A program made the translations under genes and the position numbers. The notes below the pieces were generated by a model. The model was not told where the DNA came from. It searched no databases and worked only from the letters and a program-made list of their open reading frames with translations. Shown one piece after another: positions 4,636 through 44,001 of a stretch of 64,000 nt of DNA. How positions within the stretch are numbered: the stretch's first letter is position 1; every line of letters begins with the position of its first letter. The stretch is taken from positions 558,394 through 622,393 of the forward strand of contig NZ_LMEF01000001.1 of NCBI RefSeq assembly GCF_001427905.1, read 5' to 3'. The stretch is from Flavobacterium sp. Root420 (GTDB taxonomy: Bacteria; Bacteroidota; Bacteroidia; Flavobacteriales; Flavobacteriaceae).

Positions 4636-4872
4636 CTATTTTAAAGGTTTAGGATATTGCTTCTTGATATTACGAATTAATTCCTCCAAACCATTTAATT
4701 TTAGTTCATAAATAAGCTGCAATTGCTGCCCTAATTCTCCTTTAGGAAAACCTTTATTTTGATACCAAACCACATAATATTCTGGTAAATCAATTAAAAA
4801 ACGACCTTCGTATTTTCCGAAGGGCATTTTGGTATGCGCTAATTTTATGAGAAGTTTTTTGTCTTGTTCCAT
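4636..4872 (-). CDS. DUF3820 family protein
   Basis: This 78-aa protein has the DUF3820 signature: MPFGKYEG near the start, then LIDLPEYYVVWYQNKGFP, and a basic C-terminus. The family is small and cytoplasmic. Some members are called quorum-sensing-regulated virulence factors, but no biochemical role is established. It has no signal peptide or membrane segment. It stands downstream of the palindromic repeat region of pyrG and just after a terminator-like hairpin, so it probably has a very short leader or depends on readthrough from nagB. Confidence 0.82.
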   Translation of the reverse strand: MEQDKKLLIKLAHTKMPFGKYEGRFLIDLPEYYVVWYQNKGFPKGELGQQLQLIYELKLNGLEELIRNIKKQYPKPLK

Positions 4873-4883
4873 TTTTTTTTAGA

Positions 4884-4932
4884 AAAAAGAAGCAAGAGAA
4901 AAGAATATAGATTTATTCTCTTTCTTGCTTCT
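4884..4932 (-). terminator. terminator-like hairpin downstream of nagB
   Basis: Read leftward, AGAAGCAAGAAAGAGAAT pairs imperfectly with ATTCTTTTCTCTTGCTTCT and is followed by TTTTTT. It would end the nagB transcript, but it sits only about 12 nt before the DUF3820 ATG, so it might also be a leader hairpin for that gene. Confidence 0.5.
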
Positions 4933-4954
4933 TGTTGGTACAAAGCTATTATTT

Positions 4955-5112
4955 TTTGCCACAGATTAAAAGGATTAAAATGATTTTTATAATCTGTGTG
5001 CTTTTTTGCCGCGAATTGCACGAATTAGCTCGAATTCTAATTAGTAAAAATTAGTGCTGAATATTCTAAGAGCTAAAAGACTTAGCATCTTAGCATCTCA
5101 GAGCCTTAGCAA
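4955..5112. repeat. flavobacterial intergenic repeat cluster (gccacagatt / cttagcatcttag types)
   Basis: Between nagB and DUF3820 the DNA holds a palindrome CACAGATTAAA...TTATAATCTGTG (about 4963-5000), then the stretch GCCGCGAATTGCACGAATTAG. It ends with a reiterated CTTAGCATCTTAGCATCTCAG run ending at the nagB stop. Similar strings recur at 11881-12006 and 45780-45975. No ORF is supported. Confidence 0.55.
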
Positions 5113-5113
5113 C

Positions 5114-7042
5114 TTAGTAATGCCATCTTACAAAAGCTTCCATAGCGGCATAAGTTGCCAATCCTAATTGTTGGTACAAAGCTGCTGTTTCTGCGTTTCT
5201 GTCTTCGGCTCTTTGCCAAAATTCTCTGGCGTCGGTTCCCTGGAAGACAACTCCGTCTTTTTGAGATTGATGCTTGAAAATTCCATGGCGTTTTGCCAAA
5301 ACCTGATCCGGGCTCATTGGCACTGCCATTTCCACTTCATCAATTCCCCATTCCTGCCATGCTCCTCTGTATAACCATAACCAGCAATCGTCCATAAATG
5401 ATTTTGGTTTTAGGACTTTTACGGCTTCAAAAATAGCATCCAGACATACTTTATGTGTTCCGTGTGGATCTGCTAAATCTCCGGCTGCGTAGATTTGATG
5501 TGGTTTTATTTTTTCAATTAAATCAACTGTTAATTGAATATCTTCCGGTCCGATTGGTTTCTTCTCAATGGTTCCGGTTTCATAAAATGGTAATTCCATA
5601 AAATGAATCTGATCATCAGTCAATCCAACAAAATGACTTGTTGCCCTTGCTTCTCCTTTTCTGATCAATCCTTTGATGTAACGCACTTCCGGAATGTCAA
5701 TTTCACTGTTCTTTTTATTGGTTAAAAAGGTTGCTGCTTTCTGGTAAATATTATCTGCTTCTGCACTTTTGATTCCGAATTTTTCATTGTAATCAATCAC
5801 GAATCTGGCAAAACGAAGCGCTTCATCATCCGCGACAGCGATATTTCCTGAGGTTTGATACGCCACGTGTACTTCATGTCCCTGTTCCTGCAAACGCATG
5901 AAAGTTCCACCCATACTTATAATATCGTCATCTGGATGCGGACTGAAAATCAGGACACGTTTTTTAGCCGGTTCTGCTCTTTCCGGACGGTTTGAATCGT
6001 CGGCATTTGGTTTCCCACCTGGCCAGCCTGTGATTGTATTTTGAAGTTTATTGAAGATTTTAATATTGATGTCGTAAGCCGGACCTGAATCTGCCAATAA
6101 ATCGCTCATTCCATGTTCAATATAATCGGCATCGGTAAGCATTAAAATTGGTTTTTTAAGCTGAAGGGCCAATCCTAAAACCGCTTTACGGGTTAATTTG
6201 TCTGTCCATGTTACTTTTTCTACCAACCATGGTTTGTTGATTCTGGTTAGTTTTGAAGAAGCTTCTTTGTCTAAAACAAAAACCGCATTATTATGTTCCT
6301 GTAAAAATGAAGCCGGTACGCGATTCGTAACTTCATCTTCTACTGATTTTTTTACAATATTCGCTTTTCCTTCTCCCCAAGCCAATAATATTACTTGTTT
6401 GGCCTCCATGATTTTTTTAACTCCAAGGGTAATGGCTGTTCTTGGTGTATTGCTCAATCCAAAGAAATCTTTGCTTGCCGCAACTCTCGTAATATGATCT
6501 AAAGCCACTAATCGTGTTTTTGAGTTTTGAAGTGAACCTGATTCGTTAAAACCAATATGACCGTTTCCTCCAATTCCAAGAATCTGCAAATCGATGCCGC
6601 CTAAAGCTTCAATTTTAGCTTCGTAATCATGGCAATAATCGGCAATTTGTTCTTTTGTTAAAAGTCCGTCCGGAACGTGAGCATTTTCAGGTAAAATATC
6701 GACATGGTCAAACAGCAATTCTTTCATGAAACGAACATAACTGTTGATTGAGTTTGGTTCCATTGGATAGTATTCATCCAGATTAAAGCTGATTACATTC
6801 TTAAAACTCAAACCTTCTTCTTTATGCAAACGAACTAATTCAGCATACAATCCTTTTGGTGAAGAACCAGTTGCAAGACCTAAAATGCAAGGTTGATTCT
6901 CTTTTTGTTTGGATTGAATTAAAGCCGCAATTTCCTGAGCAACTGCTTTTGAAGCATCAGAAGAATTTTCAAAAACAACCGTATTGATGTTTTCGAATCG
7001 CTTTTCGAATCCTGTTGCTTTGTCGATTTTACTTTTTAACAT
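5114..7042 (-). CDS. nagB: glucosamine-6-phosphate deaminase fused to PIG-L/LmbE-type deacetylase domain
   Basis: The 642-aa protein joins two enzyme folds. Residues about 20-280 are a NagB/RpiA-fold deaminase with the active-site motif GIGGNGHIGFNE; NagB converts GlcN6P to fructose-6-P and ammonia. Residues about 360-620 are a PIG-L/LmbE N-deacetylase-like domain with the zinc-binding motif PHPDDD (368-373) and a late GDLADPHGTH. In length it is more than twice a plain NagB. The fusion could deacetylate and deaminate the same N-acetylhexosamine, but the second activity is inferred. I chose the ATG at 7042 (MLKSKIDKATGFEKRFE). An upstream ATG at 7081 overlaps the transporter stop and would add 13 Lys/Asn-rich residues. 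It is the last gene of the leftward sugar-catabolism set. Confidence 0.9.
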   Translation of the reverse strand: MLKSKIDKATGFEKRFENINTVVFENSSDASKAVAQEIAALIQSKQKENQPCILGLATGSSPKGLYAELVRLHKEEGLSFKNVISFNLDEYYPMEPNSINSYVRFMKELLFDHVDILPENAHVPDGLLTKEQIADYCHDYEAKIEALGGIDLQILGIGGNGHIGFNESGSLQNSKTRLVALDHITRVAASKDFFGLSNTPRTAITLGVKKIMEAKQVILLAWGEGKANIVKKSVEDEVTNRVPASFLQEHNNAVFVLDKEASSKLTRINKPWLVEKVTWTDKLTRKAVLGLALQLKKPILMLTDADYIEHGMSDLLADSGPAYDINIKIFNKLQNTITGWPGGKPNADDSNRPERAEPAKKRVLIFSPHPDDDIISMGGTFMRLQEQGHEVHVAYQTSGNIAVADDEALRFARFVIDYNEKFGIKSAEADNIYQKAATFLTNKKNSEIDIPEVRYIKGLIRKGEARATSHFVGLTDDQIHFMELPFYETGTIEKKPIGPEDIQLTVDLIEKIKPHQIYAAGDLADPHGTHKVCLDAIFEAVKVLKPKSFMDDCWLWLYRGAWQEWGIDEVEMAVPMSPDQVLAKRHGIFKHQSQKDGVVFQGTDAREFWQRAEDRNAETAALYQQLGLATYAAMEAFVRWHY

Positions 7043-7074
7043 GATATAGTTTTTTTTTAATTTCTCGTTTTTAT

Positions 7075-8448
7075 TTACCATTTTCGGTATTTATGACCTT
7101 TAACCGCATAAAAAAGAATCATTATATAAGATGGCAATAACATTAAATACGCAAGCTGATTTCCACTTCTTGAAACGTCTTGCGTTCCTGCTGTAATATT
7201 TGATGTATTTATTGCTTCTGTAATTAATCCATATAATAAAGGAAAAATAGCACCGCCAATAATTCCCATAATCAAAATAGCACTTCCAATTTTAGTATAA
7301 CCACCTAAATCTTCTAATGCCATTGGCCAAATTGCCGGCCAGCAAAGCGCATTTGCTAAACCAAGTAATGCTACTAAAAGAATTACAATTGGCAAATTTG
7401 GAATTCCAGGCAATTGAATCATCAATTTAGGTGAAATAATAACAATTGCCAAAACTAAAATGATTCCCAATATCCCAGATCCTTTTAAAGCTGTTACCTG
7501 TGATAGGTATTTTGGAATCAGGGTTATTCCTAAAATATAGCCAACCACCATTGCTGACATGGTAAAAGAGGTTAATTTTAGATAAAAATTTCCTTCATCG
7601 CCATACACTCCTAATTGTTTTCCGAAACCTCCAATTGAATCTCCAGCCAAAACTTCAGCAGCTAAATACAACATTAAAGTAATCACTCCCAAAACCAATT
7701 GAGGACGTCTGAATGCATTTTTAATTTGTTTGAAAATGCTCAAATTTGAAATATTCCCCTCTTCATCCAAATCAATTTCAGGAAGTGGAGAAAACTTTAC
7801 CATTAAAGCCAATACCATAATAATCAATCCCATATAAAGATAAGGTCTTTGCAATTGTAATGCAAGAGAATTTAAGGCATTTGATTTTGCAACCGAATCC
7901 AGCATCGCGATCTTATCTGCTGTAAACTCCTCCATATTGGATAAAACCAAAGCAGTCAATATAATTGGCGCCACAAAACCGGCCAATTTATTCGCAATTC
8001 CTAAAACACTAATTCGGGCTGCGGCACTTTCTCTGGGACCAATTACAACCACATAGGGGTTTGAAGCTGTCTGCAAAATTGCCAAACCCGTTCCCATCAC
8101 AAAAAGTGCTATTAAAAACAATAAAAAAGTACGACTTTCTGCAGCAGGATAAAACATAAATGCGCCGCATGCAATAATTAATAATCCTAAGGAAATTCCG
8201 TTTTTATACCCAACTTTTTCAATTACCCAGGACGATGGAACGGCCATAACGAAATAAGCAATATAAAAGGCAAAAGTTACAAAGTACGCTTGTGAAGAAG
8301 AAAGTTCGCAAGCCAATTCAAAAAATGGAATTAAAGGTCCGTTGAGCCAGGTTACAAATCCGAGAATAAAAAATAATGCGGTCAGAATAACCATCGGAAG
8401 AATTGCACTTCTTTTTTCTATTTGTATGGCACTTTCAATGTTTGACAT
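7075..8448 (-). CDS. sugar MFS transporter (FucP/NagP-like)
   Basis: This 457-aa inner-membrane protein has about 12 hydrophobic segments and resembles the FucP-type sugar:H+ symporter subfamily. Typical features are the N-terminal FFILGFVTWLNGPLIPFFEL segment, SSQAYFVTFAFYIAYFVMA, and the LQTASNPYVVVIGP motif in the first half. Family members import fucose, glucose/galactose or GlcNAc. Lying directly before nagB (the stop overlaps the alternative nagB start) and after a sugar kinase, it probably brings the liberated amino sugar or galactose into the cytosol. Exact substrate cannot be read from sequence. Confidence 0.88.
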   Translation of the reverse strand: MSNIESAIQIEKRSAILPMVILTALFFILGFVTWLNGPLIPFFELACELSSSQAYFVTFAFYIAYFVMAVPSSWVIEKVGYKNGISLGLLIIACGAFMFYPAAESRTFLLFLIALFVMGTGLAILQTASNPYVVVIGPRESAAARISVLGIANKLAGFVAPIILTALVLSNMEEFTADKIAMLDSVAKSNALNSLALQLQRPYLYMGLIIMVLALMVKFSPLPEIDLDEEGNISNLSIFKQIKNAFRRPQLVLGVITLMLYLAAEVLAGDSIGGFGKQLGVYGDEGNFYLKLTSFTMSAMVVGYILGITLIPKYLSQVTALKGSGILGIILVLAIVIISPKLMIQLPGIPNLPIVILLVALLGLANALCWPAIWPMALEDLGGYTKIGSAILIMGIIGGAIFPLLYGLITEAINTSNITAGTQDVSRSGNQLAYLMLLPSYIMILFYAVKGHKYRKW

Positions 8449-40206: not shown

Positions 40207-40343
40207 AGGTACAAAGGTTAAGAGGAACAAAGGTTAAAAGGTTTTGAAATTTGCGATTTCACAACTTTTCTTTGTTACTTTGAACCCAAATAAAAAAAAA
40301 CACTTTTACAAAAACAACGTAGTTTAAGGAAAACCTATTAAAT

Positions 40344-40871: not shown

Positions 40872-40968
40872 AAGAGGCACATAGGTTCAAAGCAACAAAG
40901 GTTCAGAGGTAAACGAAGTGTAAAACTTTGTCCCTTTGAGCCTTTGTCTCTTTGAACCTTCCTCAAAC
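40872..40968. repeat. palindromic CAAAGGTTC-type intergenic repeat, copy 1
   Basis: The left arm GAGGCACATAGGTTCAAAG...CAACAAAGGTTCAGAGG and the right arm CTTTGTCCCTTTGAGCC...CTTTGTCTCTTTGAACC can fold back on each other. The same vocabulary (ACAAAGGTTCAAAGG and its complement) is repeated at 42850-42955 and partially at 40207-40240. Confidence 0.7.
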
Positions 40969-41108: not shown

Positions 41109-42845
41109 ATGAGTAAAATAGTTGCAGAACAATTAGTAGAAATGTTGGTGGAAGCCGGAGTAAAACGCGTTTATGCAGTTACCGGAGATAGTTTAAATTT
41201 TTTCAATGATGCAATAAGACGAAATGGAAAAATAAAATGGATTCATGTACGTCATGAAGAAGTTGGCGCATATGCTGCAGCAGCTGAAGCCGAATTAGAT
41301 GGTTTTGCTGTCTGTGCCGGTAGCTGTGGTCCTGGGCATGTACATTTAATCAATGGCTTATATGATGCACACAGGTCACATATACCCTTATTAGCGATTG
41401 CATCTACGATTAATACTGGTGAAATGGGAATGGATTATTTTCAGGAAACCAATACAATCAAGCTTTTTGATGATTGCAGTTGTTACAATCAAATGATCAT
41501 GACTGCCGAGCAGGCGCCCCGAATCATACAAACTGCCATACAACACGCTTTAGGTAAAAAAGGTGTTGCGGTTATTGGTTTGCCTGGTGATGTGTCTGAA
41601 TTAAAAGCTGTCGAAAGCAATATATCGACTCAGTATTTTCATTGTAATCCAGTTATTCGACCTTCTGATACCGAATTACAACTATTGGCAAAAGCCATAA
41701 ATGAAAGTTCTAAAATAACCCTATTCTGCGGAATTGGAGCTGAAAAAGCACACGATCAGGTAGTACAATTATCTTAGCACATCAAAGCTCCCGTAGGGTA
41801 TTCGTTCCGGGGAAAAATGAGTATCCAACCCAATAATCCTAATGAAATAGGAATGACAGGTTTACTCGGGCAGCCTTCGGCTTATCATAGCATGCACGAA
41901 TCTCATTTGGTATTATTGTTAGGAACTGATTTTCCATACGATAAATTCATGCCTACAGACAACAAAATTATTCAAATAGATACAAGCACCGAACGTCTAG
42001 GCAGAAGGGCGAATCTCTACATGGGATTATGCGGCGATGTAGCCGATACTATAGAAGCTTTATTACCCTTGTTAGAAACAAAAACAGACGATAGTTTTTT
42101 ACAGGCGCAGCTAAAATTTTATGCTACTGTAAAAGAAAATATGAATATCTATATTAATGACAATGGCGGAGAAGATACCATTCAACCAGAATATCTTGCA
42201 CATGTCATTGATAAATTGGCGGATCAGAATACAATTTTCACAGTAGATACCGGAATGACCTGTGTTTGGGGAGCGCGTTTTATAAAAGGAACCGGAGAAC
42301 GAAAAATGTTAGGATCTTTCAACCACGGTTCAATGGCAAACGCAATGCCAATGGCTATTGGGGCAGCGTTGGCACATCCGGAAAAACAGGTAATAGCAAT
42401 GTGTGGTGATGGTGGTTTATCAATGTTATTAGGAGATTTGGCAACCATTCATCAATATAATATTCCAATTAAAATTATTGTTTTTAATAATCGCGCTTTG
42501 GGTATGGTAAAACTAGAAATGGAAGTGAATGGTTTACCCGATAATGAAACCGATATGGTTAATCCGGATTTTGGTCTGATTGCACAGGCAATGGGATTTC
42601 AGGGTGTAAATGTTCATAAACCAGAAGAAGTTGAAAGTGCAATTGAAAATGCATTTCGCCACAATGGTCCTGTTTTGTTAAATGTATTTACCAATCCAAA
42701 CGCGCTGGCGATGCCTCCAAAAGTAGATTGGCAACAGGTTACCGGTATGGCAAAATCAATGACAAAATTAATGCTTGGCGGTAAAATGGAAGAAGTTTTA
42801 GATACTATTAAATCTAATTATAAGCATTTAAAGGAAAGTTTATAA
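41109..42845 (+). pseudogene. poxB: pyruvate oxidase / quinone-dependent pyruvate dehydrogenase, interrupted by one in-frame TAG
   Basis: One 579-codon frame encodes a ThDP-dependent PoxB-like enzyme that oxidatively decarboxylates pyruvate to acetate. Codon 223 (41775-41777) is TAG, and both halves stay in frame on either side of it. The first half carries the N-terminal ThDP domain (VRHEEVGAYAAAAEAEL). After the stop the frame continues HIKAPVGYSFRGKMSIQPN, the expected continuation of the central domain. The second half has the ThDP motif CGDGGLSMLLGD...NN. The context suggests CAG (Gln) mutated to TAG. It could be a recent pseudogene, a sequencing error or readthrough; no other damage is visible. 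Confidence 0.85.
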
Positions 42846-42849
42846 AAAA

Positions 42850-42955
42850 AGGTGCTGAGGTTCAGAGCGACAAAGGTTCAAAGGTAATTATATAACTTGA
42901 TAAGCTTTTTTTAACCTTTGAACCTTTGCTCCTTTGTAACTTTGAACCTCGAAGC
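42850..42955. repeat. palindromic CAAAGGTTC-type intergenic repeat, copy 2
   Basis: GAGGTTCAGAGCGACAAAGG...GGTTCAAAGG folds onto ACCTTTGAACCTTTGCTCC...CTTTGAACCTC. It lies between the poxB frame and the convergent hypothetical gene and reaches the stop of the latter, so it may act as a bidirectional terminator. Confidence 0.7.
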
Positions 42956-43668
42956 TACTCTTTCGTTACAATTATTGAAGCCTTAAATCCAGCCGCGAGA
43001 TTATCCCAATAATCATTGGTGACTAATTGTCCTTTATCATCATAAACCTGGATTTCGGCAGTATTTCCTCCTAATGAACCTATATTTAATGCTTCAAAAT
43101 CTAATTTATTGAAGCCGTTTACCAAATTAATTTTAACGTCTTTAAAATTAGAATCTAAAAATAACTGAGATTGTATTACCTGATCATTTGATGAAATTTT
43201 CACCAAATCACCATCAATTGCTCCGAAATCACGGAATTTCACAATAAAATAATTCGACTTGGTTTTAAAATCTCCTAAAGAAATATTTTTCTTCACCAAG
43301 GTTCCTCTACCTTCTTTTAAACCTGCATCTTTCAAGGCTCTATCGAGATCTTTTTCCATTTTAGCTACATAACGATCACCAGGGTTGGCAAAATCGGTTT
43401 CTGTAGACATGGTAAACTTACTTTTTTGCTCTCCTATCTGAAATTTTGATTTAGACGTAATAGTATTATTATCATACACATTTGGAGTTTTGATACCTGG
43501 TACCTCTGCTGTTGGAGCGGAAGGATCTAATGTTTCAGGCTGAGGAATCTTTTTCGGTTTTGCACTAAACTTTGGAGCAGGAATGCTCTTGAACTTAGTT
43601 CCAAATTCGGTTTGGGCTGATACTGTTACAGCGGTAAAAAATAATATGAATAATAAAATGTGCTTCAT
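42955..43668 (-). CDS. hypothetical exported protein
   Basis: This 237-aa protein has a signal peptide (MKHILLFILFFTAVTVSAQ). A Pro/Lys-rich low-complexity region (IPAPKFSAKPKKIPQPETLD, about 30-50) precedes a folded C-terminal half without a domain that I recognise. The ATG at 43668 is preferred over an upstream start at 43737 because of the signal peptide. It is convergent with the interrupted poxB frame. Flavobacterial homologues are likely but function is unknown. Confidence 0.72.
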   Translation of the reverse strand: MKHILLFILFFTAVTVSAQTEFGTKFKSIPAPKFSAKPKKIPQPETLDPSAPTAEVPGIKTPNVYDNNTITSKSKFQIGEQKSKFTMSTETDFANPGDRYVAKMEKDLDRALKDAGLKEGRGTLVKKNISLGDFKTKSNYFIVKFRDFGAIDGDLVKISSNDQVIQSQLFLDSNFKDVKINLVNGFNKLDFEALNIGSLGGNTAEIQVYDDKGQLVTNDYWDNLAAGFKASIIVTKE

Positions 43669-44001
43669 TGAAAAAGTTTTATCGAATCGGCTTTTATAAT
43701 TTTTTAAAATAATAGTATAGCAAAGCAAAAATAGCATAATTTAATTACTCACTTTAACTTTAAGACTTTTATAACAATATATTAGGCTAATTTTTGGAAA
43801 CAAAAAACTTGCCAAGAATTACTGTTTTTTGAAATTAAATTCCAATTCGATCCCGAAGCTTCGGGACCAAATTCCAAACTAACTCAACTACTATAAAAAC
43901 AATACGTTATTTTTTATTTAAAAAGAATTACATCATTTTGATAATTAACCACTTATTCATAACTTCAAGACTTTAATTAATTTTATTAAAAGACTTGTAA
44001 A
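43669..44001. other. 333-bp gap without a gene
   Basis: This divergent gap holds the promoters of the hypothetical gene (left) and cbpA (right), though no confident TAnnTTTG box was found. It contains the perfect palindrome TCCCGAAGCTTCGGGA at 43851-43866, with much higher GC than its surroundings, resembling other flavobacterial GC palindromes. Nothing else stands out. Confidence 0.55.

Follow-up and report, generated by a model that had tools for sequence, protein, structure and literature searches.

A poxB-like gene interrupted by one amber codon

The window, by which we mean the whole 64,000-nucleotide stretch of Flavobacterium sp. Root420 DNA analysed here, contains on its forward strand a frame of 579 codons including the terminal TAA (41109–42845) that, on translation, is interrupted by exactly one internal stop. 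This stop is a TAG at codon 223 (41775–41777). A further 355 codons are open in the same frame 3' of the TAG, a run whose chance of following one given stop is approximately 2e-12 from base composition alone. The full 578-codon frame aligns without gaps to the 578-codon frames of other Flavobacterium, with protein identities of up to 96%. Translation and alignment thus agree with the first-pass annotation, which had described a single in-frame amber codon at this position with both halves of the gene intact and in the same frame. The features of the gene are:

41109–41777, + strand: 5' part of the poxB-like gene, 222 amino acids plus TAG (translation, domain match)
about 41121–41456, + strand: N-terminal TPP-binding (PYR) domain, PF02776, in the 5' part (domain match)
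about 41676–42062, + strand: expected span of the central domain, PF00205 (from residues 190–318 of the intact orthologue L004)
41775–41777, + strand: in-frame TAG, codon 223, within the central domain (translation, orthologue alignment)
41817–42845, + strand: 3' part of the poxB-like gene in the same frame, from the first downstream ATG, 342 amino acids (ORF list, domain match)
about 42246–42686, + strand: C-terminal TPP-binding domain, PF02775, in the 3' part (domain match)

In the window copy the TAG divides the three TPP-enzyme domains. The central one gives only a partial match, and its remainder lies together with the C-terminal TPP domain on the 3' part.

Identity of the encoded enzyme

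The intact F. aquidurense orthologue (L004), the protein product of which is 96% identical to that of the window gene, carries PF02776, PF00205 and PF02775 in one chain, the three-TPP-domain arrangement expected of a PoxB-type enzyme. Among NCBIfam models it scores best against the pyruvate dehydrogenase equivalogs PRK06546 and PRK09124, in both cases below the equivalog cut-off (771.8 versus 893 bits and 727.6 versus 792, respectively). The best solved match is chain A of structure 3ey9, the PoxB pyruvate dehydrogenase [cytochrome] (residues 2–571, 561.1 bits), which we take to be the E. coli enzyme. Phosphate-dependent pyruvate oxidases belong to the same general TPP-enzyme family but match L004 much more weakly, at 264.8 bits to 1pow and 369.1 to the SpxB model TIGR02720 (cut-off 637.85). 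In place of the initial label of pyruvate oxidase, the structural and family scores favour a PoxB-type pyruvate:quinone dehydrogenase-like protein. We use the PoxB-type name because 3ey9 is the best match and PRK06546 and PRK09124 are the best families even though their cut-offs are not reached. On these matches the gene is predicted to encode a PoxB-type pyruvate:quinone oxidoreductase, not quite a pyruvate oxidase in the strict sense.

Genomic context and distribution

The gene lies between orf40344 and orf42955 in a draft genome of 5,627,472 bases in 34 contigs (completeness 100). Its neighbours include a GMP synthase gene on the upstream side and, on the downstream side, one gene of the DnaJ-domain and one of the MerR type. 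Comparisons of the neighbourhood were made with 80 named loci, the best 80 of 452 confirmed by scan; ten of the more distant genomes of the genus are without loci. At least three of the five neighbours are present within the 4-kb flanks of 26 of these 80 loci (L004–L029), and none of the five was found in the 4-kb flanks of the other 54. The same 26 of the best 80 loci have, downstream of the gene, a 260-amino-acid protein (window 42955–43737) that has no Pfam match at E <= 0.001. The gap between the gene and this protein is absent in some loci, 1.3–1.8 kb in others and 2.8 kb in L028.

The gene is flanked on both sides by a short repeat in the intergenic DNA, AAAGGTTCAAAGG, which occurs with near copies on both strands in clusters at 40213–40241, 40881–40961 and 42872–42943. 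There are 11 matches to the repeat in the window when up to two mismatches are allowed (3.85 expected), of which 10 are in the three clusters, and the genome contains 30 exact copies as compared with none for the reversed control. Of 27 relatives (L004–L030), 25 have copies with at most one mismatch no more than 1 kb from the gene, a count made without a shuffled control. A literature search for the repeat gave no paper. Elsewhere in the window, the region 13356–33974 contains a GH35 beta-galactosidase gene and two ORFs of 1,031 amino acids, both with another large ORF behind them. This region may be a polysaccharide-utilization locus with two putative SusC/SusD-like sets.

The poxB-like gene is optional in the genus and was detected in 40 of 398 genomes at E <= 1e-80. 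An open frame of at least 576 codons is present in 38 of these 40 genomes; the frames of the other two are 223 codons in Root420 and 336 codons in another Flavobacterium species (G052). The G052 gene (L100) is frameshifted near residue 330, within a run of T (about 2230–2250), and its two pieces are both free of stops, each in its own frame. That an accessory gene is broken in two unrelated ways suggests that it is occasionally dispensable, though either break may be a sequencing error.

We also considered whether a second copy could replace the gene, and rejected this because the genome has no close one. Searching it with the 342-amino-acid half recovered, besides the gene itself, a single TPP enzyme of 28% identity; a TPP_enzyme_N domain is present at a third place, which did not match that half at E <= 0.001. 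A literature search on Flavobacterium and pyruvate oxidase found no paper with either term in its title or abstract.

Codon 223 in orthologues

The first-pass annotation had proposed checking related strains for the stop, and this comparison found it in no relative: each of the 89 other distinct orthologous sequences encodes an amino acid at position 223. The premature stop is thus absent from orthologues (0/89), as expected of a young nonsense pseudogene. The set comprises 91 distinct DNA sequences, two of which are the window itself, with matches of at least 60% identity spanning at least 500 residues; it omits the split gene of G052, in which the residue at this position is Q, and the named loci behind it are the same best 80 of 452. 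No second strain of the Root420 species was found. The residues at position 223 in the 89 sequences are Q (31), K (21), A (13), H (7), E (5), S (4), R (4), N (2) and G (2), a range of nine amino acids which implies that no special residue is needed there. Programmed readthrough is disfavoured as an explanation because the residue is not conserved and none of the 89 sequences has the stop.

The proposal that the TAG arose from CAG is plausible, but the orthologues do not demonstrate it. The nearest sequence by DNA among equal-length orthologues (L195, 86% identical) has CAG at codon 223, but the neighbour in the tree (L198) has CAA. In 32 named loci of the Flavobacterium group the codon is CAA in 18, CAG in 6, CAT in 6, CGG in 1 and AAT in 1.

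The two ORFs could in principle be made separately, with translation restarting at ATG 41817, and their products reassembled as a split TPP enzyme. This ATG is 13 codons after the stop and has an A at -3, and the N-terminal and C-terminal TPP domains are on different halves. The F. johnsoniae initiation study describes A at -3 as a positive determinant of initiation and reports that A at -6, -12 and -13 is also favourable (PMC6847099). However, none of the latter three positions of ATG 41817 is an A. The cut and the restart both fall inside the central domain, such that the 3' part matches only positions 52–137 of the 137-position model, and none of the 89 other orthologous sequences is cut there. 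Moreover, the same methionine is found inside the intact L004 protein, and the ATG is therefore not a new start. We consider a split enzyme extremely improbable.

Constraint on the interrupted gene

We assessed decay in a set of 32 equal-length sequences with more than 90% protein identity (the window and 31 relatives), drawn from 90 sequences collected without duplicates, of which 60 are equal in length. At columns that are invariant in the 31 relatives, 2 changes are private to the window, within the range of 0 to 7 seen across the 32 sequences. With the nucleotide tree held fixed, the terminal branch of the window carries 0.037 amino-acid changes for each site, or about 21 changes, and 0.45 changes per fourfold site (156 columns). 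The resulting ratio of 0.082 is the 24th highest of the 32. In the 29 taxa whose fourfold branch exceeds 0.1, the median ratio is 0.106, and the window ranks 8 of 29 from the low end. Because the ratio of the window is below the median of its relatives, any unconstrained period of the gene can have lasted no more than about 5% of the branch: the upper bounds are 0.5% with the median as baseline, 1.6% with the lower quartile and 5% with the lowest ratio, which is near zero. These bounds are rough, combining the 95% upper mean of the amino-acid changes with a simple neutral rate from random changes.

On either side of the stop, the mean protein distance of the window to the other 31 sequences slightly exceeds the median (rank 23 of 32, counted from the low end, in each case), and the same holds for its distance at third positions (rank 26 of 32 in each case). 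These distances fit a somewhat long branch rather than relaxed constraint. The earlier statement that the rest of the sequence shows no decay is therefore upheld in quantitative terms by the private changes, the branch ratio and the bound on the unconstrained fraction. An old pseudogene was rejected because neither a second stop, nor a frameshift, nor excess amino-acid change was seen.

The lack of loosened constraint in the rest of the gene would fit a single-base assembly error, with an intact poxB-like gene in the living strain, as well as it fits a recent mutation. The genome is a draft in 34 contigs, and 23 N were counted in the 1.264 Mb read. Against this, all five window neighbours are full length relative to F. 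aquidurense L004, and a collapsed repeat is not to be expected since no second close copy was found, although both observations leave room for one wrong base. We regard an error of this kind as unlikely overall, but as the most serious competitor to a genuine mutation.

Termination at TAG in Root420

Release factor 1 is present in the genome (prfA model TIGR00019, 493.9 bits, cut-off 423.25), and in the 1.264 Mb examined TAG ends 124 of 724 mechanically called ORFs of at least 200 amino acids, the cut gene itself being one of the 124. The whole genome has 47 tRNA genes by Rfam, and ARAGORN names the anticodons of all 47. A TAG-decoding tRNA, which the first-pass annotation had suggested searching for, did not emerge: no CTA anticodon occurs among these 47 tRNAs (Rfam loci, with 150 of 518 first-look candidates scored, in the 34-contig draft), and ARAGORN found none in the 1.264 Mb. 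There is one tRNA-Leu with anticodon TAG, which decodes CUA and not UAG. Pyrrolysyl-tRNA synthetase (TIGR02367) gave no match in this genome; the control matches 13 of 14 genomes, above the cut-off in only 1. The presence of release factor 1, the use of TAG as a stop, the lack of a CTA tRNA and the lack of a pyrrolysyl-tRNA synthetase match together make recoding or amber suppression at codon 223 unlikely, and we set aside reassignment of TAG and a suppressor tRNA on these grounds.

Partial readthrough of a leaky amber codon by a near-cognate tRNA would yield some full-length enzyme. Almost any inserted amino acid might serve, given the nine residues tolerated at position 223 in orthologues, and the sequence 3' of the stop shows no decay. 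However, release factor 1, the 47 anticodons, the common use of TAG as a stop and the absence of the stop from 89 orthologous sequences all count against it, and we think it very improbable. More broadly, conditional passage of the amber codon, by leaky readthrough or by a split-enzyme restart at ATG 41817, with low or regulated PoxB activity kept, would be compatible with the absence of decay but is only slightly less improbable. Where nonsense mutation, sequencing error, suppressor tRNA and readthrough had originally all been held to fit, the first two stand and the last two are disfavoured.

We also considered whether the genome contains many amber-cut genes. The 1.264 Mb examined (of 5.63 Mb) contains 79 stops with at least 80 open codons on each side, comprising 64 TAA, 8 TGA and 7 TAG. 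The sites inspected were the 7 TAG sites. The poxB-like gene is the only one of these at which both halves belong to one family, and on this sample the idea was rejected. At three sites the upstream and downstream halves match different families (HlyD/AcrB, GH28/GDSL lipase and KaiB/histidine kinase). The other three, which may or may not be cut genes, have no family match downstream, and upstream have GH35 (window, 33972), DUF3817 (L275, NCBIfam only) and only weak matches below cut-off (L242). At the KaiB site (L259, about 4678–8218; genome C1:64678–68218), the KaiB-domain protein is followed by a PAS/histidine kinase and preceded by a two-ATPase-domain protein that is presumably KaiC-like by its motif.

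Interpretation and comparison with known systems

Our preferred explanation, to which we assign a probability of roughly three in four, is a recent nonsense mutation that has left a young pseudogene and a non-functional enzyme. A very recent single-base change would have made codon 223 amber in a single-copy accessory gene for a PoxB-type pyruvate:quinone oxidoreductase. Release factor 1 would end translation there to give a 222-residue fragment, in which the PYR domain is kept, the central domain is broken and the C-terminal TPP domain is gone. No enzyme would be expected from such a fragment because of the broken central domain and the missing C-terminal TPP domain, and the outcome would be either a young pseudogene or a loss of function at the level of the strain. 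We infer the recency of the change from the lack of decay; the loss of activity is predicted from the missing domains.

Provided that the stop is genuine, the PoxB route from pyruvate to acetate should be missing from the strain, which would set it apart from its relatives by a small metabolic difference. The case would then add another to the recent losses of optional metabolic genes, and be of small general importance. Its use lies mainly in correcting the genome annotation, in which the interruption should not be read as evidence of recoding. For a bacterial genome, none of these features is out of the ordinary.

In comparison with PoxB (3ey9), the window copy is cut at codon 223. We found no feature that distinguishes the window gene from ordinary young nonsense pseudogenes, with which it shares a single stop, a frame kept on both sides, intact relatives and no detectable decay.
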